A DNA stretch of 29,381 bases from IMG/VR virus record IMGVR_UViG_3300009285_001659, positions 1 through 29,381 of that record; one strand, given 5' to 3'. Numbering within the stretch: position 1 is the first letter of the stretch; each line of letters starts with the position of its first letter. Of the stretch, positions 3,214 through 28,511 are shown in pieces. The stretch is from a virus. Under the pieces are notes generated by a model, which saw only the letters and a program-made list of their open reading frames with translations, ran no database searches and was not told the DNA's origin. The translations under genes were made by a program, and so were the position numbers.

Positions 3214-3707
3214 CAAGACACAACTCTCAACGTGGATATTTCGCTTACGAACTTTTTCACTATATGTTTCGTAACGATAAAGTAATTCTTCTTGTGGGTG
3301 ATCTAGGATATAAGATGTTTGACCAAATTAGAGAAACATTTCCCGATCGTACTCTTAATACAGGAGCAGCAGAGCAAGCACTTGTAGACCTAAGCATAGG
3401 ACTAGCATTAAGTGGTAAAATACCAGTATGCTACAGCATAACTCCATTTCTTCTTTACAGACCCTTTGAATCACTAAGAACTTATATCAATCACGAAAAG
3501 ATTCCTGTTAAGCTAATAGGAGGTGGTAGGGATAGTGATTACGCCCATGATGGCTGGAGTCACAACGCCTCAGATGATAAAGAGTTTATGCAACACTTCA
3601 AGAACATAAACTCTTATTGGCCTGCAACTAAAGAAGAAATAAACGCTAAATACGTAGAGAGATTACTAACTAACGAGAAACCAGTATACTTAAATTTATC
3701 AAGGTAA
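3210..3707 (+). CDS. Transketolase-like pyrimidine-binding subunit (C-terminal domain missing)
   Basis: 165 aa carrying just the pyrimidine-binding (Pyr) domain: VGDLG, the catalytic Glu in GAAEQ (E55) that activates thiamine diphosphate, the PFLLYRPFESLRTYI helix, and GGGRDSDYAHDGWSH. Typical C-terminal transketolase subunits are about 300 aa and have a third domain, absent here. The domain is complete up to its end and stops cleanly, so this looks like a minimal two-chain enzyme rather than a broken gene. It overlaps its partner as ATGA, ensuring matched synthesis. Confidence 0.85.
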   Translation: MTRHNSQRGYFAYELFHYMFRNDKVILLVGDLGYKMFDQIRETFPDRTLNTGAAEQALVDLSIGLALSGKIPVCYSITPFLLYRPFESLRTYINHEKIPVKLIGGGRDSDYAHDGWSHNASDDKEFMQHFKNINSYWPATKEEINAKYVERLLTNEKPVYLNLSR

Positions 3708-9398: not shown

Positions 9399-9427
9399 TT
9401 GACACATTTCTATTAATGAATTATTAT
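9399..9427 (+). promoter_or_regulatory. Late promoter module A (scaffold/coat)
   Basis: TTGACA (9399-9404), exact 17-bp spacer, TATTAT (9422-9427). The expected start is A 9434. The RNA would then open with hairpin GTCA-GCAA-TGAC (9435-9446, a GNRA-type loop) that begins 8 nt after the -10 box, as in modules at 16055 and 22499. An intrinsic terminator follows within 57 nt. Confidence 0.8.
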
Positions 9428-9462
9428 AAAAACAGTCAGCAATGACACCGCATAGTTATAGA

Positions 9463-9490
9463 GCTATGACATAACAGTCATGGCTTTTTT
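9463..9490 (+). terminator. Promoter-proximal terminator A, with competing hairpin
   Basis: GCTATGAC (9463-9470) pairs with GTCATGGC (9477-9484) around a 6-nt loop, followed by six T. A competing stem, CATAG (9451-9455) with CTATG (9464-9468), would break the terminator, giving an attenuator-like choice. It lies upstream of the scaffold gene, so late transcription must pass it. Confidence 0.75.
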
Positions 9491-9500
9491 ATTATACAGA

Positions 9501-9520
9501 ACCGTCCAATTAGGAACGGT
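9501..9520 (+). other. Leader hairpin before the scaffold gene
   Basis: ACCGTCC (9501-9507) pairs with GG-A-ACGGT (9513-9520) with one bulged A. It lies between terminator A and the Shine-Dalgarno of the scaffold gene. It may stabilise or control the read-through mRNA. Confidence 0.4.
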
Positions 9521-9538
9521 CTAAAGAAAGGAAATACT

Positions 9539-10264
9539 ATGTCATTTACGGATAAAGTTGAACCTGAAGAGGTTAAAAAAGTAGAGGAAGTTGTAGAAGA
9601 GGAAGTCGAAAAGATAAAACTTGGAGATGAAGAATTCACACACGATCAACTCAAAAGACTGGTAGATCTCGGTAAAATAGGTGTTGAAGCTGAAGAAAAA
9701 TACAATACATCATTAGACAAAGTATGGCCAGAGTTCGGTAAGAAAAGCAACCAACTTAGAGAATACGAAGAAAAGTTTGCTCATCTGGAAGAAGAGAGAA
9801 ACAAACCTCAGCTCCCAGAAAACGAACAACAAGCAATCGAAGAAGCAAGAGCTGCTGCTAGAAAATTAGGACTAACTTTAGATGAAGATGTAGAAGGTAA
9901 AGTAGGAGCTAAACTTGAAAAAGAATTTAGAAACTACTATCTAAGAGAAAAATCAGCAGAAAGACTCTTAGAAGAAACAAGTCATTTGGAAAAAGAAATA
10001 GATGGATCTGATGGAAGACCAAAATTTAATTCAACAGAAGTTTTGGAATTCATGAAAGAAAACCCAGGATTTAAAAAACCAATTGACGCTTACGAAGCAA
10101 AATATAAATCTGAAACAGATGAGTGGAGAGCGAACCAAATAGTTAAAGCTAAAAAAGGAATTGTTACAAACAATGACAACTTAGGGGTTGACAAACAACC
10201 TCCAGAGGTAAGAGTAACAAGCGCCAATTTAGACCAACTTATTAGAGAAAGCCTAAACAAGTAG
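9539..10264 (+). CDS. Scaffolding protein (241 aa)
   Basis: AAAGGAAA precedes the ATG. The protein is acidic, Glu/Lys rich and almost wholly helical/coiled, with no cysteines. The N-terminus is strongly acidic (VEPEEVKKVEEVVEEEVEK) and the C-terminus carries a short basic/polar helix (SANLDQLIRESLNK), where coat-binding segments usually sit. Position directly before the coat gene and composition support a scaffold that guides prohead assembly and then leaves. No protease domain is visible. Sequence similarity alone would not prove this. Confidence 0.75.
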   Translation: MSFTDKVEPEEVKKVEEVVEEEVEKIKLGDEEFTHDQLKRLVDLGKIGVEAEEKYNTSLDKVWPEFGKKSNQLREYEEKFAHLEEERNKPQLPENEQQAIEEARAAARKLGLTLDEDVEGKVGAKLEKEFRNYYLREKSAERLLEETSHLEKEIDGSDGRPKFNSTEVLEFMKENPGFKKPIDAYEAKYKSETDEWRANQIVKAKKGIVTNNDNLGVDKQPPEVRVTSANLDQLIRESLNK

Positions 10265-10315
10265 CCGTACGGATATTATAAATTTGGAACATAAACAGGA
10301 AAGGAGTACAATTTT

Positions 10316-11560
10316 ATGTCAATTTTATTAAGCAATGTTACAGACACGCTTGAGAAAGTTATCCAACCTTATATTCAGGACAACTTTAACAAGACCACCC
10401 CATTGCTCGATCAATTAAAGAGAAATGACAACGTAGAGTTTTTTAATAATAACTTTTACGCTCCAATTAGAACTTCACGTCACAGTGGAATTGTTAACTT
10501 GGCTAACGATGGCAACAGTCTAGTTAGTGGCAAAGCCTCTACCGATCAAGCAAGTGTTGGTGTCAAAATCTTAACTGGAACTTTCGATATTTCGAAACTA
10601 GTCCTAGACGCTACCAAAACCAGACCAGGTGCAGTGGAAAACCAACTGACCTTTCAGGCTCGTACGTTAAACAATGATTTTGCAAAGGACGTTAACCGTC
10701 AGTATTATTCTGATGGTGTTGGTGTTCTAGCTCAAGTAGCAGGTTCTGTAGGTGCAGGTACTTTAAGCGTCATGTTACCAGATGCAAGTTTGGATGACGG
10801 AAGAAGTATCGATAATTACGGTACAGTCAATGGAGATATCAATCCAACTAAATATTTACAACCAGGAATGGTTTTGGGTATTGGTACTGCCGCCGCCGAT
10901 TTGGGTACTATTTCTACTATTACTGGAAACACTGTAGTAGTCACTGGTGCTCCAGCAATCGTTGCCAACGATTCTATTTATAGAGTTGATGGTAGTGGCG
11001 AAGGTGCAGGGACTGCCGAAATTCAAGGTTTGAGAGCTGCTTTATCTAGTTCAAGTGGTACTAGCGAATACGCTAGTGTTGCTCGTTCTACTTATGGTTG
11101 GGCTCCTCAAATTGGCACAGTCGCTGAAGCCCTATCGTTGTCCGCATTGGAAGATCAATACATTTCTGCCAGAGAGTTCGCTATGTCTGGTGATAGATAT
11201 GCTATTTTCGTCAACAAGACTCTCTACAAGAAATACGGTGATATTCTCACCGCTTTGCGTAGAACAGTTAACCAAACCGATTTACTCGGTGGTTGGACTG
11301 GTCTTGAATTCCAAATCGGCATGGGTAAAGTGGGTGTGTTCTTGGATTACGAAGTTCCAGATGGAGAGGTTATGATTATTAACCTTGATTCTTGGACTGT
11401 CTGTGAGGTATCACCTATGAATTGGGTTGAAGGTCCAGATGGCAAACCTATGGTAAGACGCAGAGATGCTATTACCTATCAAGCTACTATGGTATGGTTT
11501 ACGAACCTACTCTGTAGAGCTCCAGGTGCAAATGGTCGTTTGACTCAAAAGACTGATTAA
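10316..11560 (+). CDS. Major coat protein, HK97-fold type (414 aa)
   Basis: Strong Shine-Dalgarno (GGAAAGGAG) and position after the scaffold. The N-terminal helix region (LSNVTDTLEKVIQPYIQDNF) is followed by an extended arm/loop (FYAPIRTSRHSG), a Gly/Thr/Ser-rich insertion (~160-235) that may be a surface domain, and the A-domain-like end (VGVFLDYEVPDGEVMIIN, then TYQATMVWFTNLLCRAPG). Codons are visibly more GC-ending (GCC, GGC, ACC) than in neighbours, typical of a highly expressed gene. A -10-like TATTATAAA lies at 10274 but has no clear -35. Translation stops at TAA 11558-11560, followed by a structured RNA region. Confidence 0.85.
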   Translation: MSILLSNVTDTLEKVIQPYIQDNFNKTTPLLDQLKRNDNVEFFNNNFYAPIRTSRHSGIVNLANDGNSLVSGKASTDQASVGVKILTGTFDISKLVLDATKTRPGAVENQLTFQARTLNNDFAKDVNRQYYSDGVGVLAQVAGSVGAGTLSVMLPDASLDDGRSIDNYGTVNGDINPTKYLQPGMVLGIGTAAADLGTISTITGNTVVVTGAPAIVANDSIYRVDGSGEGAGTAEIQGLRAALSSSSGTSEYASVARSTYGWAPQIGTVAEALSLSALEDQYISAREFAMSGDRYAIFVNKTLYKKYGDILTALRRTVNQTDLLGGWTGLEFQIGMGKVGVFLDYEVPDGEVMIINLDSWTVCEVSPMNWVEGPDGKPMVRRRDAITYQATMVWFTNLLCRAPGANGRLTQKTD

Positions 11561-11568
11561 AAAAGTGG

Positions 11569-11636
11569 TTTTGGAGGCCGCTCGAAAGGTTATTTTTTAC
11601 GAATCGATAAGTAAAAAAGATTCCTTACCTCCAAAA
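11569..11636 (+). other. Long stem-loop downstream of the coat gene
   Basis: Nested pairing: TTTTGGAGG (11569-11577) with CCTCCAAAA (11628-11636); AAGG (11586-11589) with CCTT (11623-11626); TTTTTTAC (11593-11600) with GTAAAAAA (11611-11618), closing on a 10-nt loop. There is no U-tract beyond the stem, so it is not a plain terminator. It could protect the coat mRNA's 3' end or act with the tRNA-like element that starts 3 nt later. Confidence 0.65.
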
Positions 11637-11638
11637 AA

Positions 11639-11682
11639 GAGAGTAATGGCGACCCAGCAAAGTTCGATTCTTTGCGCTCTCG
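11639..11682 (+). ncRNA. tRNA-minihelix-like element (acceptor + T-arm)
   Basis: The 3' part is a canonical T-arm: CAAAG (11658-11662), loop TTCGATT, CTTTG (11670-11674), then a 7-nt strand CGCTCTC (11675-11681). That strand pairs with GAGAGTA (11639-11645): five Watson-Crick pairs and one wobble. D and anticodon arms are replaced by 12 nt able to form only TGG/CCA. It is not a functional tRNA (no anticodon, no CCA). Minihelices like this are known substrates of tRNA-processing nucleases. A micro-ORF starting at ATG 11646 overlaps it and is an alternative reading. Confidence 0.45.
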
Positions 11683-11686
11683 CAAT

Positions 11687-12010
11687 ATGGTAAAAATTAC
11701 TAAACAAGATAAGATGCGTTTTGGAGCCATACCAGATGCTGATTTTAGTGAATCACATAATAGAAGTGTGATAGCAGCAACAATTAAAAATGCTGACGAA
11801 AACCAAAAGAGAAAACAAAAACTCTTTAGTGAAGGTTTAAGAGATAGAGCAGACATGGTGTATAGCTTTATAAGACACATTGTTAAGGGAGGTAATCAAG
11901 ATAAAACCATAGAAAAATACCTTGGTAAAGATCGTATGATGCAATTAATGGGAGAAGAAAGAATCCGTGAAATGCAACGCATGATGGCTATGCAGGGTAA
12001 GTATAAATAA
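11687..12010 (+). CDS. Hypothetical basic helical protein (107 aa)
   Basis: I choose ATG 11687; the TTG 15 nt upstream lies inside the T-arm-like element. There is no Shine-Dalgarno. The protein is basic and helical (IKNADENQKRKQKLFSEGL) and ends with a Met-rich helix (MMQLMGEERIREMQRMMAMQ). Its position between coat and decoration genes is where head-completion or minor capsid proteins occur, but no family is recognised. Cutting the RNA after G 11682 would leave the ATG within a few bases of a 5' end. Confidence 0.6.
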   Translation: MVKITKQDKMRFGAIPDADFSESHNRSVIAATIKNADENQKRKQKLFSEGLRDRADMVYSFIRHIVKGGNQDKTIEKYLGKDRMMQLMGEERIREMQRMMAMQGKYK

Positions 12011-12024
12011 ATAGAAAGGACATT

Positions 12025-12699
12025 ATGCCACTTAAAAGACATTTGCCAGACGTTAGATTTAGCGGTAATCAAGTCACACCAGACGAAATTGACCGTTATG
12101 AACAGTATCAAGTAATTAATCCAGCCATTAGCGCCACCTTCTTTGGTAGTGCTACTGCAGGCACAGTTGACGAAGTTGTCACCATTGGCTTGGGGAATAC
12201 CAGAGCCGACTTCCCACGTGCAGTTGCTCTCATCTTCTCAGGAAGCGCTTCGGTTAGTGGAACTGCAGCCGTAACTGGTAAAGATCAGTTCGGTGTTTCT
12301 ATCAGTGAAAGCCTAGGTCTTGCACAAGGAACTCAAGCTGCAGGAACTGTTGCAGGCACCAAGGTATTTGCACAAGTCAGTGCTTGTAGTGTAACTATGG
12401 GAACTGGTGTTCTTGGAACTGGAACTGTTTCTCTTGGTGTGCCTATTGCTGGAACTTCCGCTCTTTTTGGCTTACCAACTAAAATTGGCGCAGTCTCCGA
12501 TGTTAAAGCGATCACTTGGTCAAATAGCACTGGGTTATCAATCGCAATTAATGGCGGAACTGTTGCTTCTACCACCTATGTAGATACCACAAATCATGCA
12601 TTTAAAGGTTCGGCTGCTTTGGCTGGTACAATGACCTATACAGTCTTGTACAAACCATCCTATGTTGCTGAAAGTCTAGCCAAAATGGCTAACTTGTAA
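12025..12699 (+). CDS. Decoration or tail structural protein (224 aa)
   Basis: AAAGGA precedes the ATG. Beyond a charged N-terminus (residues 1-30) the protein is rich in Gly, Ala, Ser and Thr with many short beta-type repeats (GTAAVTGKDQFG, GTGVLGTGTVSLG), as in capsid decoration or tail-surface proteins. Like the coat gene it favours GC-ending codons, suggesting high copy number. It is directly followed by a terminator/pseudoknot and the second glycan block, which makes it a natural candidate substrate for glycosylation. The exact role is inference. Confidence 0.6.
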   Translation: MPLKRHLPDVRFSGNQVTPDEIDRYEQYQVINPAISATFFGSATAGTVDEVVTIGLGNTRADFPRAVALIFSGSASVSGTAAVTGKDQFGVSISESLGLAQGTQAAGTVAGTKVFAQVSACSVTMGTGVLGTGTVSLGVPIAGTSALFGLPTKIGAVSDVKAITWSNSTGLSIAINGGTVASTTYVDTTNHAFKGSAALAGTMTYTVLYKPSYVAESLAKMANL

Positions 12700-12738
12700 T
12701 TAAAGCAGATAAGTGATAAAGTTAGGGTAATTTACCAT

Positions 12739-12792
12739 TCTGCGAGATGGAGAATCCCTCTCTAATTCTCGCAGATTAGGGGGGGATTTTTT
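12739..12792 (+). terminator. Terminator interlocked with a second hairpin (pseudoknot or switch)
   Basis: Stem 1: TCTGCGAGA (12739-12747) with TCTCGCAGA (12767-12775), 9 bp perfect. Stem 2: AATCCCTCTCTAA (12753-12765) with TTAGGGGGGGATT (12776-12788), 13 bp with two G-U pairs, followed by T-tract to 12792. The arms alternate (1-2-1'-2'), so they form an H-type pseudoknot or exclude each other as antiterminator and terminator. Just upstream are a weak promoter-like TTGTAA-17-TAAAGT (12694-12722) and a mini-hairpin GGTA/TACC (12726-12736). Confidence 0.75.
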
Positions 12793-12796
12793 ATCT

Positions 12797-13450
12797 ATGC
12801 AAGCATTTTTTTTCAACGACTTCAAGAACGCCTATATACCTGAAATACTCAAGGAAATGTATCGAGATTGTGTGTACGATCCTTATTTGAAGGGTAAGAA
12901 AGATCTAGTAATTCTTGATCTTGGAGCTAACATCGGAATGTTCTCTTATTACGCCTATGATATGGCTAAGATTATTTATGCAGTAGAGCCTAGTAAAATG
13001 CACTTTGAAGCACTCAGTAAGATGATTGAATACAACGGAATGAAGCGTGTCAAAGCCATCAAAAAGGCAGTTTCACATAAAACAGGACAAACTACCTTCT
13101 TTCATAATGATAATGTCACTATGTTTAGTTTAAAACCAGAAGTAAATAGCAGACCACAAGATGCTGAAATCGTGGAAACTATCTCACTAGATAAATTCTT
13201 TGAAGAAAACAAAATTAAACACCTAGATTTTCTCAAGATCGACATTGAAGGAAGCGAGGCAGAAGTTTTTGCAAGCGAAGGATTTGAAAAGGTTGCAAAT
13301 AAGATCGATGTAATAATGGGTGAGTTTCACACTTGGAGCAACGTCAACCCTAGACAATTTGAAACATATTTAACAGATAGAGGTTTTACTTTTAAATGGG
13401 TTAATGCTACAGAGGCTACCTTATTTATTTGTGAAAGAACACATGACTGA
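12797..13450 (+). CDS. FkbM-family methyltransferase 1 (217 aa)
   Basis: SAM-dependent methyltransferase with the FkbM hallmarks: DLGANIG (41-47), IIYAVEPS, AVSHKTGQTTF and LKIDIEGSE (D149, E151, G152). The family O-methylates sugars on glycolipids, polysaccharides and polyketides. There is no obvious Shine-Dalgarno between the terminator and the ATG; T-rich leader GATTTTTTATCT precedes it. First of a four-gene glycan block bounded by terminators on both sides. It overlaps the next gene by 8 nt. Confidence 0.88.
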   Translation: MQAFFFNDFKNAYIPEILKEMYRDCVYDPYLKGKKDLVILDLGANIGMFSYYAYDMAKIIYAVEPSKMHFEALSKMIEYNGMKRVKAIKKAVSHKTGQTTFFHNDNVTMFSLKPEVNSRPQDAEIVETISLDKFFEENKIKHLDFLKIDIEGSEAEVFASEGFEKVANKIDVIMGEFHTWSNVNPRQFETYLTDRGFTFKWVNATEATLFICERTHD

Positions 13451-14015
13451 TGAAGATTTAAAAAAAGAGATATTTATTGATAAGGTTTATGGAGAGGTTG
13501 AGGGAAATGACTTAACGATCTTAGATATTGGTGGATGTAGTGGATTTTTTAGTATATTTGCTCAATCTCATGCTAAGATTATTTATGCCTTTGAACCCTA
13601 CTCATTGGCAATTAAGAACTTCAAAGAGAATACTAAGGAATTTAAAAACATTAAACTTATAGAGAAAGCAGTCTCTGATGTTAGCGGAGAGATTGACCTT
13701 TATGAAGATGATTACGCAGGTCAAAGCATAGTGCATAACAAAGAGCAAAAAGTATGCAAAAGAGTGCAGTCTGTAATCCTATATGACTTTATTATTGAGA
13801 ACAAAATAGATCATATTGATTTTATGAAGATGGATATTGAATGTGCCGAGATAAATGTTTTTAATAGTAAAAACTTCGATAAGGTTTTAGCAATAACTGA
13901 TAGAATAGCAATGGAAACTCATGGACACAATGCTTTTATTATACCGATACTAGAGAATAATAACTTTAAAATGTTAAAAATAGATCATACTTGTATAGCC
14001 GAAAGGATAAAATGA
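13443..14015 (+). CDS. FkbM-family methyltransferase 2 (190 aa)
   Basis: Start placed at ATG 13443 (MTDEDLKKEIF), giving an 8-nt overlap; an earlier in-frame ATG at 13404 would add 13 residues inside the first methyltransferase gene. Core motifs: LDIGGCSGFF (27-36), IIYAFEPYS, AVSDVSGEIDL and MKMDIECAE (D131, E133). The usual Gly of DIEGSE is Cys here. It shares the AKIIYAxEP segment with its neighbour, so the pair probably arose by duplication and diverged. Likely methylates a second position or sugar. Confidence 0.82.
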   Translation: MTDEDLKKEIFIDKVYGEVEGNDLTILDIGGCSGFFSIFAQSHAKIIYAFEPYSLAIKNFKENTKEFKNIKLIEKAVSDVSGEIDLYEDDYAGQSIVHNKEQKVCKRVQSVILYDFIIENKIDHIDFMKMDIECAEINVFNSKNFDKVLAITDRIAMETHGHNAFIIPILENNNFKMLKIDHTCIAERIK

Positions 14016-14800
14016 AAATTATAGCTTATACCTGTGCAGACCAAAATAATATGGGTTATGCCAAAAAGATGGTTAACTCTTTCCACTATTTTCATCCAGA
14101 TATTGAGGTGAAGATTTATACTGAAAAAGAAGTCGGAAATCCAGTTAATTGGTATAAACAGAAGCCTTTATTCGCTAAAGAATTAATTAAAAATTATGAT
14201 CTTGTGATAGGACTAGATGCAGATCAGATCATTACTGGTGATCTCTCTTACGCTTTTGACAAAGAATTTGACGTTGCTGTTGTCAATAATTTTTGCAGAT
14301 CCGATGTTGATAAATATGGTTTGATAAGTGTTTTTGATATCCCACCAGATCAATATATGAATTGTGGAATGGTGATGATGAAAAGTAAAAAGTTTATTGA
14401 GAATTGGTGGAATCTCTGCAATTCGTTTCATTTCCAGAATATGAGATATAAGGAACAAGATTTGCTTAATCTCATGATCCATTTTGGGGACTGGAATGTG
14501 TTTCCACTTGATAGACCAAGTAAAGAATGCAACGGGTGGCACGGACTACTTTCAAAGGGCGAGTGGTTAAAAATGAAGTTGGTTGACGGAAAACTTATCC
14601 TTCCTAAAGCCAAAGATAATTATCCCGAATCAGATAAAGAAATTAAAGTAATGCATTGGGCTGGTGGTGGAAATGAACCAAAACAAAACTATAGAATCAG
14701 TTGCACGGAGGAAGTAATCGAGTACCTTGACGAACTAGTCAAAGAAAGAACTAATGGAAGACCTGCTAAAGAAAATAAAGGATCTAAAAATATTAAATGA
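14012..14800 (+). CDS. GT8-like glycosyltransferase (262 aa)
   Basis: Start at ATG 14012, with AAAGGA upstream and an ATGA overlap with the previous stop. The fold is GT-A-like: an N-terminal nucleotide-binding strand (KIIAYTCADQNN), LVIGLDADQII with the metal/nucleotide DxD at D69-A-D71, MNCGMVMMKSKKF and a late VMHWAGGG motif resembling the C-terminal His of GT8-type enzymes. It would transfer a sugar from a nucleotide donor to an acceptor glycan or protein. Family placement between GT8 and related nucleotide-sugar transferases is uncertain. Confidence 0.75.
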   Translation: MKIIAYTCADQNNMGYAKKMVNSFHYFHPDIEVKIYTEKEVGNPVNWYKQKPLFAKELIKNYDLVIGLDADQIITGDLSYAFDKEFDVAVVNNFCRSDVDKYGLISVFDIPPDQYMNCGMVMMKSKKFIENWWNLCNSFHFQNMRYKEQDLLNLMIHFGDWNVFPLDRPSKECNGWHGLLSKGEWLKMKLVDGKLILPKAKDNYPESDKEIKVMHWAGGGNEPKQNYRISCTEEVIEYLDELVKERTNGRPAKENKGSKNIK

Positions 14801-14831
14801 CAATGAGTATTCTTCACTTGAAGGAATAATC

Positions 14832-14915
14832 ATGTCTGGACCATACCCAAAAACTAAGAAAGAACTAGAAGATTTGATTAAGGAATCAATTAAATATGCA
14901 AAAAAAGAAACTTAG
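14832..14915 (+). CDS. Hypothetical peptide (27 aa)
   Basis: AAGGA lies 6 nt before the ATG. It encodes a charged helical peptide starting MSGPYPKTKKELEDLIKE and overlaps the GT4 gene by 20 nt. It fills the gap between two glycosyltransferase genes and may mainly serve to couple translation. Similar short SGPYPKTKKELE-type sequences are unknown to me as a family. Confidence 0.4.
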   Translation: MSGPYPKTKKELEDLIKESIKYAKKET

Positions 14916-16080
14916 GATCTTGTTTAATACTAATGCCCCCTGGAGTACATCGGGGTATGCTCAACAAATTAGAGAACTAGCACCAAAAATTCGTGATGCT
15001 GGTTACGATCTGGGAATTGTGTGTTTCTATGGATTAGATGGCGGAAAAATAATCTTGGATGGCATCACTATGTACCCCAAAATCGGTGATATGTGGGGAG
15101 AGGATGGTGTTATTAACCATCAAAATGATTTCAAGGCAGATGTGGTCTTTACTCTGCAAGACATCTGGGTGCTTAAACCAGAAGCGCTTAAATATTTTAA
15201 GAATTGGATCCCCATTTGTCCTATAGATCATGAGCCCACACCTCCAGCCGTAAGAGAACGCCTTAAAATGGCCTACAGAGTGGTTACTTATTCACCTTTC
15301 GGACACAAACAACTACAAGATGAAGGAATCAACTCAACCTATATACCTCACACTGTAGACACCAAGTTGTTTAAAAAGATCGACAAGGCAGAGATTCGCA
15401 AACAATTAAGTATTCCAGAGGATATATTCTTATTTGGAATGGTTGCAGCTAACAAAGACAACCCATCACGCAAATCGTTTCAAGAAGCTATGGATGCTTT
15501 TGCCAAATTTCACAAAAAACACCCTAAGAGTGGGATGTATTTTCATACTATGACTAAATCAAGCCCTGGTTTCTCAGGATTTCCAATTGAAGAGTATGCC
15601 AGAGTTTTAGGTATTCAAGACTCAATCTATAGCATTCCAATTTATGAACTTCTTTACAAGGTAGGTAAAGAGGATATGCACAAGATTTATAACTCATTTG
15701 ATTGTTTACTTGCTCCAAGCGAAAATGAAGGTTTTGGTGTGCCTATTGTTGAGGCTCAAGCGTGTGAAGTACCAGTCATCACGACCAAGTTCACGGCTAT
15801 GAGGGATTTAATCATTGATGGTAAGACTGGATTCTTCTGTAATGTAAATTACAAGAGATTTACTCCTCTTGGTTCTTATGTTGCTATGCCTGATATTGAG
15901 TCAATTTATAAAGCTATGGAAAAAGTTTACTCTGCTAATAGAGAAAAGATGGGCGTAGAGGCTAGAAAATTTGTCATGCAGTTTGATATTGATAAAGTAT
16001 TTGAGGAGAAGTGGCTTCCATTTTTAGAGAAAATCTCTAAAGAACTCTGCAAAGTTGACACTTCAAAGCAAGTGAAGTAA
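14896..16080 (+). CDS. GT4-family glycosyltransferase (394 aa)
   Basis: Two-lobed GT-B enzyme of normal length. N-terminal acceptor lobe begins LRILFNTNAPWSTSGYAQQ; the donor lobe has FGMVAANKDNPSRK and the retaining-enzyme motif ENEGFGVPIVEA (E278 and E286, spaced E-x7-E), then VPVITTKFTAMRDLI. It adds a sugar from a nucleotide donor, cytoplasmic or at the inner membrane. It is the last gene of the second glycan block. The -35 box of the next late promoter (TTGACA 16055-16060) lies inside its final codons. Confidence 0.88.
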   Translation: MQKKKLRILFNTNAPWSTSGYAQQIRELAPKIRDAGYDLGIVCFYGLDGGKIILDGITMYPKIGDMWGEDGVINHQNDFKADVVFTLQDIWVLKPEALKYFKNWIPICPIDHEPTPPAVRERLKMAYRVVTYSPFGHKQLQDEGINSTYIPHTVDTKLFKKIDKAEIRKQLSIPEDIFLFGMVAANKDNPSRKSFQEAMDAFAKFHKKHPKSGMYFHTMTKSSPGFSGFPIEEYARVLGIQDSIYSIPIYELLYKVGKEDMHKIYNSFDCLLAPSENEGFGVPIVEAQACEVPVITTKFTAMRDLIIDGKTGFFCNVNYKRFTPLGSYVAMPDIESIYKAMEKVYSANREKMGVEARKFVMQFDIDKVFEEKWLPFLEKISKELCKVDTSKQVK

Positions 16081-16083
16081 ACT
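16055..16083 (+). promoter_or_regulatory. Late promoter module B (tail genes)
   Basis: TTGACA (16055-16060), 17 bp, TAAACT (16078-16083). Expected start A 16090; the RNA then folds GCGTA-AAA-TACGC (16091-16103), again 8 nt after the -10 box. A 15-nt spacer ATTGGTACTATTTAG leads to the terminator. The spacer shares ATTG-GTACTA-AGAA with module C at 22547. Confidence 0.7.
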
Positions 16084-16118
16084 TAAATTAGCGTAAAATA
16101 CGCATTGGTACTATTTAG

Positions 16119-16145
16119 AAGCACCTCCTTTGTGGGGTGCTTTTT
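16119..16145 (+). terminator. Promoter-proximal terminator B
   Basis: AAGCACCTC (16119-16127) pairs with GGGGTGCTT (16134-16142), one G-U, short loop, then a T-tract through 16145. It ends the glycan block and also lies 55 nt after the expected start of module B, ahead of the tail genes. Confidence 0.85.
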
Positions 16146-16158
16146 ATTAAGGAAAAAT

Positions 16159-16422
16159 ATGTTTAATGATGGCTTCTCATATTCAAATATAATTGCTGCT
16201 GGAACTTCTACCCTTATTAGTGGTAGGAAAGGCTTCCTTCACTCAGTAGTGATAAGCAGTCCTTATGTTGGAACTGTAATTCTAACTGATGGATCAGGAA
16301 CAATTGCAACCATTGGAACACCAAGTGTTACAGCAACTACATTAAGTTTTGACGCTAGAGTCAAAGATGGTTTAGTCGCAGTAGCCACTGGAACTCCAAA
16401 TTTAACAATAATTTATCAATAA
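16159..16422 (+). CDS. Small beta-rich structural protein (87 aa)
   Basis: Start at ATG 16159 (AAGGA upstream), not at the in-frame codons inside the terminator. The sequence is hydrophobic/Thr-Gly rich beta type (TSTLISGRKGFLHSVVISSP and GTVILTDGSGTIATIG), compatible with a small tail or capsid surface protein. First gene of the tail group. No motif allows a firmer call. Confidence 0.6.
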   Translation: MFNDGFSYSNIIAAGTSTLISGRKGFLHSVVISSPYVGTVILTDGSGTIATIGTPSVTATTLSFDARVKDGLVAVATGTPNLTIIYQ

Positions 16423-16430
16423 AGGAAATT

Positions 16431-16943
16431 ATGCAATCAGTTACAGGTTTAAAAGGTATTATTAGATACAAACTTTTTGATAAAGATGGAAATCTAAAAC
16501 AAGAGGGTAAAGGTTGTAATATTGTTACAACTCAAGGTGACAATTATTTTGTAGATCAACTTTCTGATTCTGGGGCGGCTGCGGTTAGTTTAATTGCTTT
16601 AGGAACTGGAACTGCTACTGTTGCAAAAGCTAATACTTGGGTAAGTGGTCCATTTTCTGCAAACGGAACTATAACTGCGGGTGGTGGAAGTGTTGCGGCT
16701 GTTACTAATTCGGGAACTCCAGCTAATCTACAATATGTAGGTACTTTTGCTGCAGGATATGCAACTCAAGATGGTATTACTAGAGCAATTTTAATTAATA
16801 TGAATCCTTCAGCAGATGGGAATGGAACTCCAAATGGAAGTACAACTTTTTGTGTAGCTCATGGAACTGTTAGTCCAACTGTAAATAAGGGAGCTAGTGA
16901 TAGTTTAATCATAACTTGGGATGTTACTTTTTTGGGAGCTTAG
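16431..16943 (+). CDS. Putative tail structural protein (170 aa)
   Basis: AAGGAAAT precedes the ATG. The N-terminal segment GLKGIIRYKLFDKDGNLKQE and NIVTTQGDNYFVDQLSD is followed by a Gly/Thr/Ala-rich beta region (GTGTATVAKANTWVSG) and a closing strand (SDSLIITWDVTFLGA). Similar short proteins occur among fibre and baseplate-region genes of environmental phages. It is likely a virion surface component. Confidence 0.55.
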   Translation: MQSVTGLKGIIRYKLFDKDGNLKQEGKGCNIVTTQGDNYFVDQLSDSGAAAVSLIALGTGTATVAKANTWVSGPFSANGTITAGGGSVAAVTNSGTPANLQYVGTFAAGYATQDGITRAILINMNPSADGNGTPNGSTTFCVAHGTVSPTVNKGASDSLIITWDVTFLGA

Positions 16944-16954
16944 GAAATTAAAAT

Positions 16955-18064
16955 ATGGCAACAACTTATCCAGGCACTTTAGATGCCTTCACTAATCCAG
17001 TAGGTACTAATACTTTAGATTCACCAGACCACGCCCTTCAACATTCAGACGCAAATGATTCTATTGAAGCTATTCAGGCTGTTTTAGGAACTACTGCTGG
17101 TACTTCTGTTTTAATGAGTTTTGCTGCTGGTCAATTTGCTGCTAAAACAGCAGGTGGAACTATAAACACGACCACTTTTGGCACTCCTACTTTTACTTTA
17201 GGCTCTGATGCTACTGGAGATATGTTTTTTCGTTCTGCCGGTGGAACTGCTACAAGATTAGGAATTGGTTCGTCAGGACAGTATCTAACTACTAATGGAA
17301 CTTCTCCATCTTGGGGAACTGTTGCCTCAAGTAGTTCTGATGGATGGACACTGGATTCTAATACTTGGACTGTAGCAGGAACTGCAAGTGATCCTCAATT
17401 TACCATTACATCACCAGGAACAATAAATACAACTTTCGGTCAAGGTGCTAGATTTAAGATGGATAATGCAGGTTCAACAGGTTATTATCTTTTATCTTTA
17501 GCTCCAGCCGTGGCGAGTGGCACTACTACTTTAACTCTTTATGGTGGGACAGCTTACAATCTTGTTTCTGGCTCTGCTATAACTAATGTATATTATTCAA
17601 GAGAAAAATCACCTCTTAACTTTCCTCTAACTGATTCTTTTTGGACTGTCCAAAGAGTTGATACTTCTTCAAGAACTCAAGCATCTCCTACTCAGAATCA
17701 ATGGTATAACTTAGGTGGAACTGCAACACAGATAAGTATTCCTGCTGGATTATGGAAAACAAGTTATAAAGTATTTGCTAATCCTTATAAAGCTAACACT
17801 GATTCTATTGCTCAACACGTTACTCTTTCTACTGGCACAGCTTCAGAGAGCGATGCAGATTTTACTGCTCAAATGGAGCTCTCTAATGGTTCTGTAGTGA
17901 CAAGTATAGGCGGTCTTAGCATGTATGTAGAAAAAAATCTTACTCTTGCTACAGTGACACCATATTATTTAAATAGTAAAACAAAAAACGCTAGTATGAA
18001 CAATATCACTTTTGCTAATGACCAAGTAAAAATGATTATTAATGCAAAGAGCAACTTAATTTAG
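16955..18064 (+). CDS. Tail fibre-like protein (369 aa)
   Basis: N-terminal TYPGTLDAFTNPVGTNTLDS followed by ALQHSDANDSIEAIQAVLG is a leader seen in many fibre/appendage proteins of environmental phages. The middle is Gly/Thr/Ser-rich beta repeats (GTPTFTLGSDATGDMFFRS, GSSGQYLTTNGTSPSWG), a pattern of trimeric fibres. The C-terminal ~170 residues form a compact beta domain (SFWTVQRVDTSS, NQWYNLGGTATQISIPAG) that would be the receptor-binding or capping part. Probable host-recognition protein. Confidence 0.7.
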   Translation: MATTYPGTLDAFTNPVGTNTLDSPDHALQHSDANDSIEAIQAVLGTTAGTSVLMSFAAGQFAAKTAGGTINTTTFGTPTFTLGSDATGDMFFRSAGGTATRLGIGSSGQYLTTNGTSPSWGTVASSSSDGWTLDSNTWTVAGTASDPQFTITSPGTINTTFGQGARFKMDNAGSTGYYLLSLAPAVASGTTTLTLYGGTAYNLVSGSAITNVYYSREKSPLNFPLTDSFWTVQRVDTSSRTQASPTQNQWYNLGGTATQISIPAGLWKTSYKVFANPYKANTDSIAQHVTLSTGTASESDADFTAQMELSNGSVVTSIGGLSMYVEKNLTLATVTPYYLNSKTKNASMNNITFANDQVKMIINAKSNLI

Positions 18065-18091
18065 AATAAATATAGACCGACTTACTTATGT

Positions 18092-18946
18092 ATGATTACT
18101 TACAACGAAGCATCAGTTACTTACTCAAGCACTCTTTATAAATATAATGGCGAGAGTATTGGTCAAATTTTTCAAAGAGTTTTACAGGATTCACTAGGAC
18201 TTACAGATTCACTCAAACAAGCTAGAATAATTGTAAATACACTTCAGGATACATTAGGTTTAACAGATACTTTAGTTAGAACAGCAAATGCAATTAGAAC
18301 CCTTGTAAATAATGAAGGTTTAACAGATACTTTAGTTAAAAATGTTTCATATTCAAGAGAAATAATAAACTCTCAAGGGATAACAGACGATCTTAAAAAG
18401 GTAAGTAATTTTTCAAAAACACTTTCTGAGTCAGTTTCTATACTAGATCAATTAGTTAGAAATTTAACTATTCCAAGATCAATAGAAGATAGTGAAGGTC
18501 TTAGTGACTCTTTAACTAAACAATCAAATGTTTCTCGCTCTTTAAGTGAAGCAGAAGGATTAACTGATCTTAACACTCATGAAAGAATTGTACGCAATTT
18601 TATTGAAGATAATTTAGGGATTAGTGATGTTATAAATTCATTAGAAAGGGCAATTGATCTTACAATTGCTCACTTCTTAGGAATCGAAGATATTAAGCCA
18701 ATAATGGTTTCAGCGGATATTAGTAAAACTGATATAAAAATTGTCATAAATGAAAAACCGAGTTATGATTCTATTGGAAGAACTCTAGCAGTTTTTCAAA
18801 CAAGTTTAACAACTTACAACGATTCATTAACAACTTATAACAGTGCAAGCCAAGTTTATGCAGGATATGATGATAGGCAAGAGCTTGGAGAAATGCCTCA
18901 ATTTGATAATTATATACCAGAAATTATATCAGTAGGATCATTATGA
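18092..18946 (+). CDS. 20-residue-repeat structural protein (284 aa)
   Basis: Residues 30-188 are eight near-exact 20-residue units of the form L-x-[DNE]-[ST]-x-G-[LI]-[TS]-D-x-L (for example TLQDTLGLTDTLVRTANAIR at 50-69). They are flanked by matching Tyr/Ser/Thr caps: TYNEASVTYSSTLYKYNG at the N-terminus and TYNDSLTTYNSASQVYAG near the C-terminus. The repeat likely makes a long regular fold, a spacer or fibre shaft. There is no Shine-Dalgarno in the 27-nt gap (CGACTTACTTATGT). The next gene overlaps as ATGA. Confidence 0.7.
   Translation: MITYNEASVTYSSTLYKYNGESIGQIFQRVLQDSLGLTDSLKQARIIVNTLQDTLGLTDTLVRTANAIRTLVNNEGLTDTLVKNVSYSREIINSQGITDDLKKVSNFSKTLSESVSILDQLVRNLTIPRSIEDSEGLSDSLTKQSNVSRSLSEAEGLTDLNTHERIVRNFIEDNLGISDVINSLERAIDLTIAHFLGIEDIKPIMVSADISKTDIKIVINEKPSYDSIGRTLAVFQTSLTTYNDSLTTYNSASQVYAGYDDRQELGEMPQFDNYIPEIISVGSL
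18179..18655 (+). repeat. Tandem 60-bp coding repeat (eight units)
   Basis: Eight in-frame units encoding 20 residues each (the seventh is 19). They are much better conserved in protein than in DNA, with synonymous and radical changes, so the array is old and under selection for the G-[LI]-[TS]-D turn. A ninth, degenerate unit (FLGIEDI) follows. Confidence 0.75.
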
Positions 18947-20079
18947 TAATTAAAGTAAAAAATAATCTAGACATTAAAGCACAATATTCATTTTTAAGTA
19001 ATTCAGAGGCCTCAGCAGTTTCAACTCTTAGAGTTCGCAACATCAATCAATTTTATGATGATTGGGCTATACAAATAGGCAAGACTGGTGAAGAAAAGAC
19101 GGAAATAAGGCTAATAAACGCCGCTCCATCTGGTACAAGTCTATCAATTTCAGCTGCAACCTCGTTTGATCACCCAGAAGATACTCCAGTTTACTCAATT
19201 AAGTTTGACCAGATAGTTTTTGAGCGTTCAACAATTGGAACTGCAGGGACAGCAACGCCTATTGGAACTGTTTCTATTACTCCAGACAGCGATTATACAC
19301 AATATGACGACACAACTGGTGCTTCCACTTATGCTTATAGAACTTATTTTCAAAACTCTGTAAGTGGTGTTTTATCTAGTGAGAGTGACTGGCTTACATC
19401 TTCAGGATTTTCTTTTTACTCTAAAGCTAAATTAAAAGATCGTGTTAAAGGAAAACTCTTAGACTCTGGATATATTAAGGATGATAGTGTAATTGATGAT
19501 TGGCTTAATGAATGGCTAGAAGTTTTAAACAATGTAGCTATTCAAGTGGATAAGTCTTATGGACTAGGGACTGTTGATGTTTCTTTTGGAACTTCTGGTC
19601 TAGGAACTATTACAAGTGCAGATTTTATATCACTCAAAAATATGTGGATAACTAACAATGGAAGTGATTTTTATGTTGCCGCTCAGATAGACATGAATCA
19701 AATTTATCCTAATCAAACTTTTAATGAAACTCATCCTTATTTTTCATGGAGAGGTGATAATGTCTTTAAGATCAATCCAGAAGAAACTGGAGGAACAGCA
19801 AGACTTCATTACTACAATATTAGAACTAGACTAGTAGATGACACAGATGAATTACCAGTAGTAATGAGGCCTTATACACGTTCCTTTGTAGATTATGCCC
19901 TCTCTGAAGCCTTATATCAGGATACTAAGGAAGCTAGAGCTGATCGCTACTCAATGAGAGCAGAAGCAGATAAAAAAACTTTCCTTTCTCAAATAACACC
20001 ACGTAATAATACAGGTATTCAAATGATACAAATGGACTCTGATATAAACTCAAGTGATGAGTTCTACGAAATACTATGA
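18943..20079 (+). CDS. Putative head-tail adaptor/tail protein (378 aa)
   Basis: Starts in an ATGA overlap. The N-terminal ~130 residues look like beta-sandwich (fibronectin-like) modules (AYRTYFQNSVSGVLSSESDWL). The C-terminal part is a helical/beta domain with KAKLKDRVKGKLLDSGYIKDD and a late MRPYTRSFVDYALSEALYQD helix, reminiscent of tail-tube/adaptor proteins of podoviruses. It is followed by the propeller-like tail gene, the usual order for tail-tube A then B. Homology is inferred from order and pattern only. Confidence 0.55.
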   Translation: MIIKVKNNLDIKAQYSFLSNSEASAVSTLRVRNINQFYDDWAIQIGKTGEEKTEIRLINAAPSGTSLSISAATSFDHPEDTPVYSIKFDQIVFERSTIGTAGTATPIGTVSITPDSDYTQYDDTTGASTYAYRTYFQNSVSGVLSSESDWLTSSGFSFYSKAKLKDRVKGKLLDSGYIKDDSVIDDWLNEWLEVLNNVAIQVDKSYGLGTVDVSFGTSGLGTITSADFISLKNMWITNNGSDFYVAAQIDMNQIYPNQTFNETHPYFSWRGDNVFKINPEETGGTARLHYYNIRTRLVDDTDELPVVMRPYTRSFVDYALSEALYQDTKEARADRYSMRAEADKKTFLSQITPRNNTGIQMIQMDSDINSSDEFYEIL

Positions 20080-21476
20080 AAATAAAAGTTTTAAATCTTG
20101 GCGGATTAAATACCTATCTCAATCCTTTAGTAAAGAATGATGGCGATTTAATCACTTCTATTAATATGGATTCATATCCTTTCGCTGCTAAGACTAAACG
20201 TCAAGGTTATTCAACTTATTTAGGTACTACTGACGGCAGTGCAGTTGCTGATCTTTTTTCTTGGACTAAAAATGATGGGTCATTATTTACCTATAAAGTA
20301 AGTAATCAAAAACTTTATTATTCTACTCAGGGGACAGGAGACTGGACTATTTGCGGCAATGGTACTTTAAGTGCAGATCATGTGGGATATGCAGTCTTAG
20401 ACAATACTATGATTTTAGGTGATGGAGTGGGATCGACTAGACACACTACTACAGGTACTTCTTTTACAAATACCACTCTTGCACCTGTTGGAGAATTTTT
20501 TGCACAATACCAAAATCGTATTTACATTAGTGGAACTTCTTCAACTGTTTTTTACTCGACAACCAATGACGCTACTAACTGGGCTTTATCAGGCACAGCA
20601 GACTCATCCTCGTTTACAGTACCAGGAGCAGGAAAGATGGGTGCTATCTTCAAAGCTAATGATCGCTTAGTAATGACTAAAACCTCTGGAATAATTGATA
20701 GATGGGACGGTCATTCACTTGTTGATACTTCTACAAAACTAGGTCCTTCTTCACCTTATTCAGTTGACGAGTCTGAAGGCTACTATATGTGGCTAAATCG
20801 TCTTGGAATCATGGGTTATGGTGGAGACAAACCACAACTTTTAAGCAACGCTATTGAACGCCAAATTTATAATAGAAGCGGATCGGCAATTGTTGGTTCA
20901 GTTTTTGGGACTGCACCTGCTGGAGTACACCGCTACGACTATATGGTTTCAGTTGGAACTATAACTGATGACTTTACTAGTCAGACCATTAATAACGCTG
21001 TTTTAAAATATAACTTCCAGAAGAACGAATTTTTAGACTATTCATTTTATAATCAACCTTCTTGTTTTCACTCATTTGTAAATTCAAGCGGAAATCAACA
21101 GTTTATTTTCGGGTCTGGTAATCAGGTTTATACTTTAGAGTCAGGAAACACAGACAACGGGCAACCTATTGAATCAATAATGGAATTTGTAGTACACTTA
21201 GGAAGTCCAGAACTAGACAAAGAGTTTAAATCTTTATATGGTTTCTTTAATCCAGGATGTAATGCTAAAGTTCAAATAGCTATAACTGATACTTATACAA
21301 GAGATTCTAAAAAGTGGGTAGAAATTGGAGACTTTACTGATGGGATTTTAAAATATAGATTCCCTAAGCAGAAGTGTAGAGGTAAACTTTTATTTATTAG
21401 AATTTATGAGAACTCTAAAGACCCTGCTTTTACTTGTTATGGATTCGCAATAGATGGAGATGTAATAGATGACTAA
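20076..21476 (+). CDS. Putative propeller-type tail nozzle/stabilisation protein (466 aa)
   Basis: Overlaps the previous stop as ATGA. The sequence cycles through short beta units with Trp/Tyr and Gly turns (LGTTDGSAVADLFSWTKNDG, KLYYSTQGTGDWTICGNG, QNRIYISGTSSTVFYST), a beta-propeller-like rhythm. P22- and T7-type phages have propeller proteins at the tail nozzle. The C-terminal ~90 residues form a separate beta domain. It probably seals packaged DNA and extends the tail. Confidence 0.6.
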   Translation: MKIKVLNLGGLNTYLNPLVKNDGDLITSINMDSYPFAAKTKRQGYSTYLGTTDGSAVADLFSWTKNDGSLFTYKVSNQKLYYSTQGTGDWTICGNGTLSADHVGYAVLDNTMILGDGVGSTRHTTTGTSFTNTTLAPVGEFFAQYQNRIYISGTSSTVFYSTTNDATNWALSGTADSSSFTVPGAGKMGAIFKANDRLVMTKTSGIIDRWDGHSLVDTSTKLGPSSPYSVDESEGYYMWLNRLGIMGYGGDKPQLLSNAIERQIYNRSGSAIVGSVFGTAPAGVHRYDYMVSVGTITDDFTSQTINNAVLKYNFQKNEFLDYSFYNQPSCFHSFVNSSGNQQFIFGSGNQVYTLESGNTDNGQPIESIMEFVVHLGSPELDKEFKSLYGFFNPGCNAKVQIAITDTYTRDSKKWVEIGDFTDGILKYRFPKQKCRGKLLFIRIYENSKDPAFTCYGFAIDGDVIDD

Positions 21477-22332
21477 TTATAACGATTTAGGACTCAACCA
21501 GTTTTTACAGCCTACTAACTCTCCAGTTACTAACTCAGGTTTTGTTAATGCTTATCAATTTGACTCAAATAATGAAAGAGGAGCTATAACCAGTGCTTTT
21601 ATTCAAGATGCTTCTATTAATAATGCAAAGATAGGAACTGCTGCAATTGGCACTGCTAATATTGGAACTTTAACTTTTAATGAAATATCTGGTGGTACTG
21701 CCACTTTTGGTGGAACTACAAACGGAAATGGATTAGTAGAAGTTTTAAATGAAGCTGGTGGAACAGTTGTTCAGTTGAATAAAGACGGTTTACAGATAAC
21801 GAACGGAAGTATTAGCGTACAAAATAGTTCTGGGTCGACATCTTTTGATCAACTCGGAGTTGTATCAGAACAGAATTTTTTTACATCAACAGCAGAAGTA
21901 ATTTCTTCTGGAACTCAGGAAACAAGTAGTTACAGCTTTGTTGATATTGTTGGAGGGAGCATGTCTTTCACAACGAGCAGAACTAGGCTTTTAAATGTTG
22001 ATTGTCAGCTCGGCTTCTGGGTTTACTCGGGTGTCACTTATGGAACAACCGAATATAGAGGTCTTTGTCAACATACTTTTTACATAGATGGAACACTGAG
22101 TTCTTATGCTCCAGTCATTGAAACAGGATATTTTGGAGTTGGGTCTGGTGCAGAAAGAGCTTTAGGAGCGTATGGGTTGAGTTATGTTAAGTTTGGTCAA
22201 GTTCTAAGCCTTTCTGCTGGAACACACACACTCAAATTGCAATCAAGGTTATATGATTCTAGTTTATCAACTGGAACTCCAGTTTTGCACATATGGGCAT
22301 ACAAAATAGGCTACACTCTACTAGGAACTTAA
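21469..22332 (+). CDS. Tail fibre/spike-like protein (287 aa)
   Basis: Overlaps the previous gene by 8 nt. An N-terminal anchor (YNDLGLNQFLQPTNSP) is followed by repeats of the IGTAAIGTANIGTLTFNEI type, then VVQLNKDGLQITNGSIS (a common fibre motif), and a C-terminal beta-jelly-roll-like domain (FVDIVGGSMSFTTSRTRLL, SAGTHTLKLQSRLYD). A second receptor-interacting protein besides 16955-18064 is likely. Confidence 0.65.
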   Translation: MTNYNDLGLNQFLQPTNSPVTNSGFVNAYQFDSNNERGAITSAFIQDASINNAKIGTAAIGTANIGTLTFNEISGGTATFGGTTNGNGLVEVLNEAGGTVVQLNKDGLQITNGSISVQNSSGSTSFDQLGVVSEQNFFTSTAEVISSGTQETSSYSFVDIVGGSMSFTTSRTRLLNVDCQLGFWVYSGVTYGTTEYRGLCQHTFYIDGTLSSYAPVIETGYFGVGSGAERALGAYGLSYVKFGQVLSLSAGTHTLKLQSRLYDSSLSTGTPVLHIWAYKIGYTLLGT

Positions 22333-22333
22333 T

Positions 22334-22507
22334 ATGAAAACATATATTATGCTTAATGACAAAGGAGAGGCTCAAAATATTTTAGAGTCTAATGATCCAG
22401 GAATTATTATTCCAATAAATAGTATTGATATAACAGATCACAAAAATAAAGAAGAAATTAAACACGATATTAAAAAATATAAAATAAAAGATAAAAAATT
22501 GACATAA
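22334..22507 (+). CDS. Hypothetical small protein (57 aa)
   Basis: ATG 1 nt after the fibre stop. It encodes MKTYIMLNDKGEAQNILES, then a Lys-rich helix (HKNKEEIKHDIKKYKIKDKK). Small genes after fibre genes are often fibre-assembly helpers, but nothing in the sequence proves this. Its last codons (K-L-T-stop) contain the TTGACA of promoter module C. Confidence 0.5.
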   Translation: MKTYIMLNDKGEAQNILESNDPGIIIPINSIDITDHKNKEEIKHDIKKYKIKDKKLT

Positions 22508-22527
22508 ATAGTCTTGTGAATTAGTAT
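22499..22527 (+). promoter_or_regulatory. Late promoter module C (ejection genes)
   Basis: TTGACA (22499-22504), 17 bp, TAGTAT (22522-22527). Expected start A 22534; hairpin CCAG-AATA-CTGG (22535-22546) begins 8 nt after the -10 box. The 14-nt spacer ATATTGTGTACTAG resembles that of module B. A terminator follows. Confidence 0.8.
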
Positions 22528-22560
22528 AAAACTACCAGAATACTGGATATTGTGTACTAG

Positions 22561-22586
22561 AACACCGACTTTTTTCGGTGTTTTTT
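22561..22586 (+). terminator. Promoter-proximal terminator C
   Basis: AACACCGA (22561-22568) pairs perfectly with TCGGTGTT (22575-22582), loop CTTTTT, then T-tract to 22586. It ends 53 nt after the expected start of module C and lies upstream of the ejection genes. Confidence 0.88.
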
Positions 22587-28319: not shown

Positions 28320-28511
28320 ATGAAAATTCACGAAATAAATCAAATTGAACCAAAAATGATACCTTTTAAGTGTCCTGTTTGCTCGGGCTTTGGAACACTG
28401 AAATATGGTGAAAAAGTTTGTCATGCCTGTAATGGAAAAGGATATGTAGTAATAAAGAACGCAGAAGAAAGAGAGATAGATAGATATGCAAACGAGAATA
28501 ATTTACACTGA
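28320..28511 (+). CDS. DnaJ-type zinc-finger protein (63 aa)
   Basis: One complete DnaJ-like Cys-rich module: CPVCSGFGTL and CHACNGKGYV, two CxxCxGxG knuckles coordinating one zinc. There is no J domain. Stand-alone fingers of this sort are frequent in phage early regions and probably bind proteins or nucleic acid. AAGGA lies 16 nt upstream, rather far; ATAGATAGAT abuts the ATG. It overlaps the next gene by 26 nt. Confidence 0.65.
   Translation: MKIHEINQIEPKMIPFKCPVCSGFGTLKYGEKVCHACNGKGYVVIKNAEEREIDRYANENNLH

Follow-up and report, generated by a model that had tools for sequence, protein, structure and literature searches.

In Bacillus velezensis, the NusG paralogue LoaP binds a hairpin in the dfn leader and gives read-through (PMC12691694). 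AlpA of Pseudomonas aeruginosa acts where an intrinsic terminator, tB, begins 54 nucleotides (nt) from the start site and is bypassed for expression of the operon (PMC7969949). The Q proteins of lambdoid phages bind promoter DNA at a sigma-dependent pause (PMC6606751, PMC7171158), and the put RNA of phage HK022, about 70 nt long with two stem-loops, acts without a phage protein (PMC9378689). Here, we compare these systems with a leader element that occurs three times in a viral DNA of 29,381 bases, referred to as the window, which is the whole of IMG/VR record IMGVR_UViG_3300009285_001659 and belongs to a tailed phage with genes for a large terminase, portal, coat and endolysin. Each copy of the element (modules A, B and C) consists of a promoter, a small hairpin at the 5′ end of the RNA, a spacer and an intrinsic terminator, and stands before a group of late genes. 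From the sequence comparisons set out below, we consider it fairly probable that termination is conditional at each late promoter and is released by a small zinc-ribbon protein acting on the leader RNA.

In logic, the closest of these systems is LoaP, in geometry AlpA and in purpose Q, with put the nearest as an RNA element close to a promoter. As at dfn, a small 5′-leader hairpin lies upstream of an intrinsic terminator in the leader, before the first gene. However, dfn has a UNCG hairpin and a 417-nt leader (PMC12691694), whereas the loop here is of the GAYAAAAUAGC type, in a hairpin at RNA nt 1–2 of a leader of about 55 nt. With AlpA, the element shares a promoter followed by a near terminator, but the DNA element that AlpA reads lies between −35 and −10 (PMC7969949), where no conserved signal is found here; DNA recognition of the Q or AlpA type was rejected on that ground. 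The likeness to Q is control of late genes by polymerase passing terminators that lie beyond their promoter. Lambdoid phages use a single late promoter, whereas the genomes compared here have several each, and it is the RNA that is conserved. As for put, an RNA structure near the 5′ end of the transcript is again linked to suppressed termination, but here it is one short hairpin before a terminator, tracked by a phage protein. The boxB of the lambda nut sites is likewise a small hairpin with an A-rich loop, close to where a phage transcript begins; its factor, N, is an arginine-rich peptide, whereas here the candidate factor is a zinc ribbon and the element sits at nt 1–2.

A preliminary description of this DNA, made from its letters alone, had seen no known antiterminator gene. 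In agreement, the NusG domain (PF02357) was found in none of 18 phage genomes and in 10 of 14 control genomes, and the Pfam Q family PF06530 in none of the 18, in a search that did not take in other Q families such as PF03589. Mutually exclusive antiterminator and terminator helices, which define a protein-controlled attenuator, are likely present through pairing within the module, with a short helix and a modest effect. Since at least one defining feature of each of LoaP, AlpA, Q and put was tested and not found, we file the phage leader switch as a variant of antitermination or attenuation outside those families. No description of the element was found in the open-licence papers searched.

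Modules A, B and C

Three modules of promoter, hairpin, spacer and terminator had been proposed in the preliminary description, and a check of the sequence found each of them in its place. The promoters below are read from sequence and the hairpins from sequence and folding, that of A also from covariation in relatives.

9399–9427, + strand: promoter of module A, TTGACA (9399–9404), 17 bp, TATTAT (9422–9427)
9435–9446, + strand: 5′ hairpin of module A, GTCA-GCAA-TGAC, from RNA nt ~2
9451–9455, + strand: candidate antiterminator arm of module A, CATAG, complementary to CTATG (9464–9468) in the 5′ arm of the terminator
9460–9490, + strand: AGAGC element of module A (9460–9464) and intrinsic terminator AGCTATGAC/GTCATGGCT with T-tract (terminator 9462–9490)
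16055–16083, + strand: promoter of module B, TTGACA (16055–16060), 17 bp, TAAACT (16078–16083)
16091–16103, + strand: 5′ hairpin of module B, GCGTA-AAA-TACGC
16107–16109, + strand: candidate antiterminator arm of module B, GGT, with ACC (16123–16125); weak, 3 bp and neighbours
16117–16145, + strand: AGAAG element of module B (16117–16121) and terminator GCACCTC/GGGGTGC with T-tract (terminator 16121–16145)
22499–22527, + strand: promoter of module C, TTGACA (22499–22504), 17 bp, TAGTAT (22522–22527)
22535–22546, + strand: 5′ hairpin of module C, CCAG-AATA-CTGG
22552–22555, + strand: candidate antiterminator arm of module C, GTGT, with ACAC (22562–22565)
22559–22586, + strand: AGAAC element of module C and terminator ACACCGA/TCGGTGT with T-tract (terminator 22562–22586)
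1562–1786, + strand: 74-amino-acid zinc-ribbon protein (CPHC...CGKC), candidate trans-acting factor by gene-family association

The common layout of TTGACA, a 17-bp spacing, a −10 box and a hairpin at constant offset holds throughout, and in every module a gap of exactly 7 nt separates the −10 box from the hairpin. Spacers of 16, 15 and 14 nt had been given for A, B and C; that of A is really 13–15 nt, according to the base chosen as the start of the terminator stem. The spacer motif reported as common to B and C (ATTG-GTACTA-AGAA) proved to be a gapped match.

The exact hexamer TTGACA occurs five times on the + strand of the window, three times in the modules and twice within genes (10188 and 14256). 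Promoter and terminator in this pattern arise 0.85 times per shuffled window against three times in the window itself, and in 20 shuffles the pattern with a hairpin at the right offset never arose. The leader RNAs of A, B and C fold better than their shuffles (z −4.9, −3.9 and −3.8), with folding energies of −16 to −20 kcal/mol for the whole leaders, which carry T-tracts. Behind the terminators of B and C, the first ATG is found at 16159 and 22599, respectively, 12–13 nt past the T-tract, and because there are just 12–13 nt, a second promoter does not fit in between. The gap from terminator A to the start codon of the scaffold gene contains an inverted repeat, ACCGT...ACGGT (9501–9520). Similar repeats precede the scaffold gene in many relatives, including ones that lack the zinc ribbon, and the repeat may act in translation, independently of the module.

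The module across a phage family

Relatives were collected from IMG/VR through the portal (78 loci) and through a coat profile (65 loci). The same module, with its hairpin at RNA nt 1–2, is found in more than 25 related phage genomes of one family, and its consensus layout there is TTGACA-17-TAnnnT, 6–7 nt, hairpin, spacer, AGAAG, terminator and T-tract. Among 54 distinct modules from the window and its relatives, 47 have the exact TTGACA and 40 the 17-bp promoter spacer; the 5′ hairpin is present in 50, and in 47 of those it lies 6–8 nt past the −10 box. The median distance from the presumed start to the end of the terminator is 58 nt, and in most modules an ATG follows the terminator 2–60 nt later. 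The earlier placement of A, B and C before the scaffold, tail and ejection groups stands, and the modules of the relatives likewise occupy the late strand ahead of the orthologous groups, namely scaffold, tail (c20/c34) and ejection (c9), and in some genomes ahead of the terminase. The position of module A is orthologous to that of the module before the scaffold gene of relative G009.

Module calling required AGA[AG][GC], and the conservation of AGAAG was rechecked without that requirement. Of 33 promoter-proximal terminators, 25 have it, compared with 5 of the 19 others on the late strand, which rules out a plain A-tract that belongs to terminators in general. When all viral contigs were scanned for the DNA pattern, the matches listed were mostly due to chance, and the full-module loci among them come from this same phage family, except for the doubtful locus L157. 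Rfam gave no match in the window at the gathering score.

Conservation of the 5′ hairpin

Covariation in the hairpin was measured on a MAFFT alignment of the relatives, which was not guided by structure. The four inner pairs are formed in 95 of 100 cells, and cells changed on both sides of a pair number 40, compared with 11.3 in shuffles; when the pairing partners are slid, the signal collapses. Information content was compared with a chance level of 0.85 bits. It reaches 9.1 bits in the 9-nt loop with its closing pair (A-rich consensus GAYAAAAUAGC). In the 17 bp that separate the −35 and −10 boxes it is 1.27 bits, a value pooled across genomes that a private element of a single genome could escape. 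Since the hairpin loop is conserved and the promoter spacer carries no conserved signal, the alignment argues for recognition in RNA and not in promoter DNA, which supports the function in RNA that had been suggested for the hairpins of A, B and C.

A candidate antiterminator helix

In each module of the window, part of the spacer can base-pair with the terminator's 5′ arm (CATAG/CTATG in A, GGT/ACC in B and GTGT/ACAC in C), and relatives have ACGA/TCGT, GCGA/TCGC, GCGT/ACGC, GAGT/ACTC, CTGG/CCAG and CTGAC/GTCAG in the same roles. Pairing of spacer and 5′ arm is stronger within modules than between modules (p about 0.0005–0.0008). After declustering, p is 0.01–0.035 with 36 modules, 0.0003–0.007 with 21 and 0.01–0.07 with just 10. 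Controls with the 3′ arm of the terminator and with the leader were null, and an initial test that had no loop limit and included G-U pairs was not significant (p 0.09). Between the relatives L019 and L031, a change of ACGA to GCGA is accompanied by one of TCGT to TCGC. The altered base lies within the terminator loop (GTATA to GCAAA), so pairing in the terminator does not explain the change. The helix between spacer and arm is likely an antiterminator that excludes the terminator. This pairing goes beyond the preliminary description, as does the complete absence of the module from relatives that lack the zinc ribbon.

A zinc-ribbon protein tracks the module

Among 85 gene families present in at least three genomes, only the zinc ribbon tracks the module: all 27 of the module-bearing genomes compared have it, and none of the 8 without modules does. 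Every near-complete genome with modules thus encodes a relative of the protein; the runner-up is a GroEL-like family, in 10 of the 27. Two genes had been named earlier as candidate factors: the comparison singles out the zinc ribbon at 1562 and does not pick out gene 11687 (family c11). Records without the zinc-ribbon region were set aside (G001, G010, G018, G020 and G060), and a prophage of Roizmanbacteria, discussed below, was omitted from the gene-family comparison, which therefore has 27 genomes where the counts that follow have 28. An automated scan alone finds modules in 21 of 28 zinc-positive and 1 of 8 zinc-negative genomes (p 0.003), and with matches of the covariance model added, these become 26 of 28 and 1 of 8 (p 3e-5). 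By eye, the counts are 28 of 28 and 0 of 8; in divergent genomes, the module calls were in part visual and were made with the zinc-ribbon result in view. The lone automated match among the zinc-negatives, in G049, is not at the start of a late group. Mapped on the coat tree, each trait has changed about six times. The independent pairs are concordant throughout, but just three of them sit on branches with good support, not enough for a test that stands alone.

Several zinc-negative relatives have TTGACN/TAnnnT promoters directly before their late groups with no terminator behind them. Such bare promoters precede the scaffold (G024, G040), ejection (G040, G043, G049) and tail genes (G040, G043, G049, G051), and the start codon is often a few to 40 nt past the −10 box. 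At the scaffold position of the zinc-negative G021, G036 and G050, no clear promoter of this type was seen. Together with the 12–13 nt between T-tract and ATG in B and C, the terminator-free promoters support read-through as the purpose of the module, as had been supposed; antitermination itself we infer.

The preliminary description had also raised the possibility that the RNA of about 55 nt is itself the product, which would make the modules several paralogous small phage RNAs with strong promoters and terminators of their own. Small RNAs typically have such a size, a hairpin at the 5′ end, a single-stranded middle and a terminator, and a genome has one to five copies of the module, which would suit them. 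However, the ATG lies so close behind the terminator in most modules that there is no separate promoter for the gene, the modules stand almost only at the starts of late groups on the late strand, and zinc-negative phages retain promoters there without the RNA. We judge this reading very unlikely.

It is also conceivable that, as with put, the nascent RNA alone acts on RNA polymerase and the zinc ribbon has another role. The 5′-terminal structure near a promoter and the lack of a known antiterminator gene fit, and put RNA needs no phage protein and works through the β′ zinc-binding domain (PMC9378689). The link of module and zinc ribbon would then be left unexplained, however; put has two long stem-loops, where these leaders have a single hairpin of 4–5 bp, and in a leader that is permanently antiterminated the terminator would be useless. 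A factor-independent leader seems to us improbable.

The zinc-ribbon gene lies upstream of the late region and was not observed immediately downstream of a module. The structure predicted by AlphaFold is a small beta fold, confident for the most part (mean predicted local distance difference test score 84) and compatible with a zinc ribbon. Pfam and PHROG return weak zinc-ribbon matches only, and the best match of the profile among PDB sequences is ribosomal L32 (E 0.19). In many relatives, the zinc ribbon closes with a variable tail that carries a GT(I) motif (L027:6059-6322, L047:4256-4525, L082:2487-2756, L073:4301-4585); GT dipeptides are also very abundant in several of the family's structural proteins.

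Proposed mechanism

Each late group would have its own sigma-70-type promoter, and a strong intrinsic terminator would by default halt the transcript at about nt 55. The 5′ hairpin of the nascent leader would serve as the recognition handle, and the alternative helix of spacer and terminator 5′ arm, with AGAAG in or beside its loop, as the candidate antiterminator. Once accumulated, the zinc ribbon may recognize the leader RNA through the hairpin, the AGAAG loop or both, and may either stabilize the antiterminator form or ride with RNA polymerase, so that polymerase would read through into the scaffold and coat, tail and ejection genes. Termination, binding of the zinc ribbon to RNA or polymerase, read-through as its effect, timing and processivity are all inferred steps of this scheme.

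The terminator of each group would also end the transcript of the previous one. Insulation of this kind could be the whole function, with promoter output coming from leaky read-through and no dedicated factor. The modules do lie in the gaps between groups, where they would end upstream transcripts; an insulating terminator is, however, expected before the promoter and not after it, and the conserved hairpin, the alternative pairing and the link to the zinc ribbon would go unexplained. We give insulation alone very little credence indeed.

A further alternative is that the zinc ribbon has the opposite sign, promoting termination and so repressing late genes in early infection or lysogeny until another signal, or its own loss, releases them. 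Co-occurrence is compatible with either direction, and one relative is a prophage with both zinc ribbon and modules. The terminators, though, are already strong, by the folding energies and T-tracts given above, and should stop polymerase by default, and an extra terminating factor leaves late expression unexplained. We regard this as unlikely, if worth keeping in view.

Several points weigh against release by a zinc ribbon that recognizes the leader. The association of protein and module fits an antiterminator or a termination enhancer alike and cannot tell them apart. In one quarter of the zinc-positive genomes, the module was called through the covariance model or by eye. A fold search with the zinc ribbon in the PDB and viral models gave nothing below E 1. 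The helix of spacer and terminator arm is 3–5 bp long, 3 bp in module B, and its effect is modest. Run on the window, the covariance model of the relatives (R1) did not recover A, B or C as significant matches, because their hairpin loops are short (GCAA, AAA and AATA), and their putative homology to the modules of the relatives rests on position, architecture and the coat and portal relatives. Since some modules (in G002, G037, G023, G044, L062 and L063) have no 5′ hairpin, it is not strictly required.

These hairpin-less modules are compact variants. In those of G002 (2801, 17263 and 21860, late strand), a GGAT(C/T)AAGACC motif stands in place of the hairpin, and the zinc ribbon of G002 is among the most divergent, which makes co-divergence of factor and element possible.

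Relatives, host and neighbouring genes

No relative of the portal was found in the phage collection, and the coat protein has only about 23% identity to those of Arthrobacter and Microbacterium phages. Among GTDB genomes, one locus was found, on a contig of Candidatus Roizmanbacteria, which belongs to the Candidate Phyla Radiation (CPR). Because the phage genes there adjoin uvrB/uvrA/uvrC-like host genes, which they follow, and an integrase-like open reading frame, as read from the translations, the family seems to include at least one prophage integrated in the chromosome of a CPR bacterium. When 373 genomes of the Roizmanbacteria class were searched for the coat, just this prophage was returned, and the host range was not broadened. 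The prophage carries the zinc ribbon and modules, and in the 1.4-Mb Roizmanbacteria genome, the covariance model of the relatives gave a single match (E 0.2), directly before a small-terminase-like open reading frame of the prophage. Its ejection-to-scaffold block lies on the strand opposite to the zinc ribbon, terminase and portal (L322/L323, G047:C2:460302-482319), through inversion or misassembly.

Conserved beside the zinc ribbon in most relatives are genes that, judged by their sequences, are NAD-epimerase-like or two halves of a transketolase-like gene (1728–3707); they possibly serve surface sugar synthesis. At the right end of the window, there are genes for a protein with a weak match to a DnaJ-type zinc finger (28320–28511) and for a PIN-domain protein (29013–29243; PF10130, E 2.6e-9). 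Besides the GroEL-like genes of the module-bearing relatives, GroES-like genes occur in 8 of 27 (G020, G022, G027, G028 and others for the two kinds).

Significance

CPR (Patescibacteria) phages are known mostly from sequence, and no late-gene mechanism for them was found in the papers searched. Our tentative proposal, to which we give a little less than even weight, is that this is a new class of antitermination, in which a small zinc ribbon unrelated in sequence to NusG or Q flips a 5′-hairpin leader switch at several late promoters and so regulates the late genes of a CPR-infecting phage family. If true, the RNA element, the short antiterminator and the protein would make a complete and testable circuit obtained from sequence alone, with compact parts (a leader of about 55 nt and a protein of 74 amino acids) and with the zinc-negative relatives and their bare promoters as a natural knock-out series. 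The zinc ribbon would then join the small set of folds proposed to control termination.

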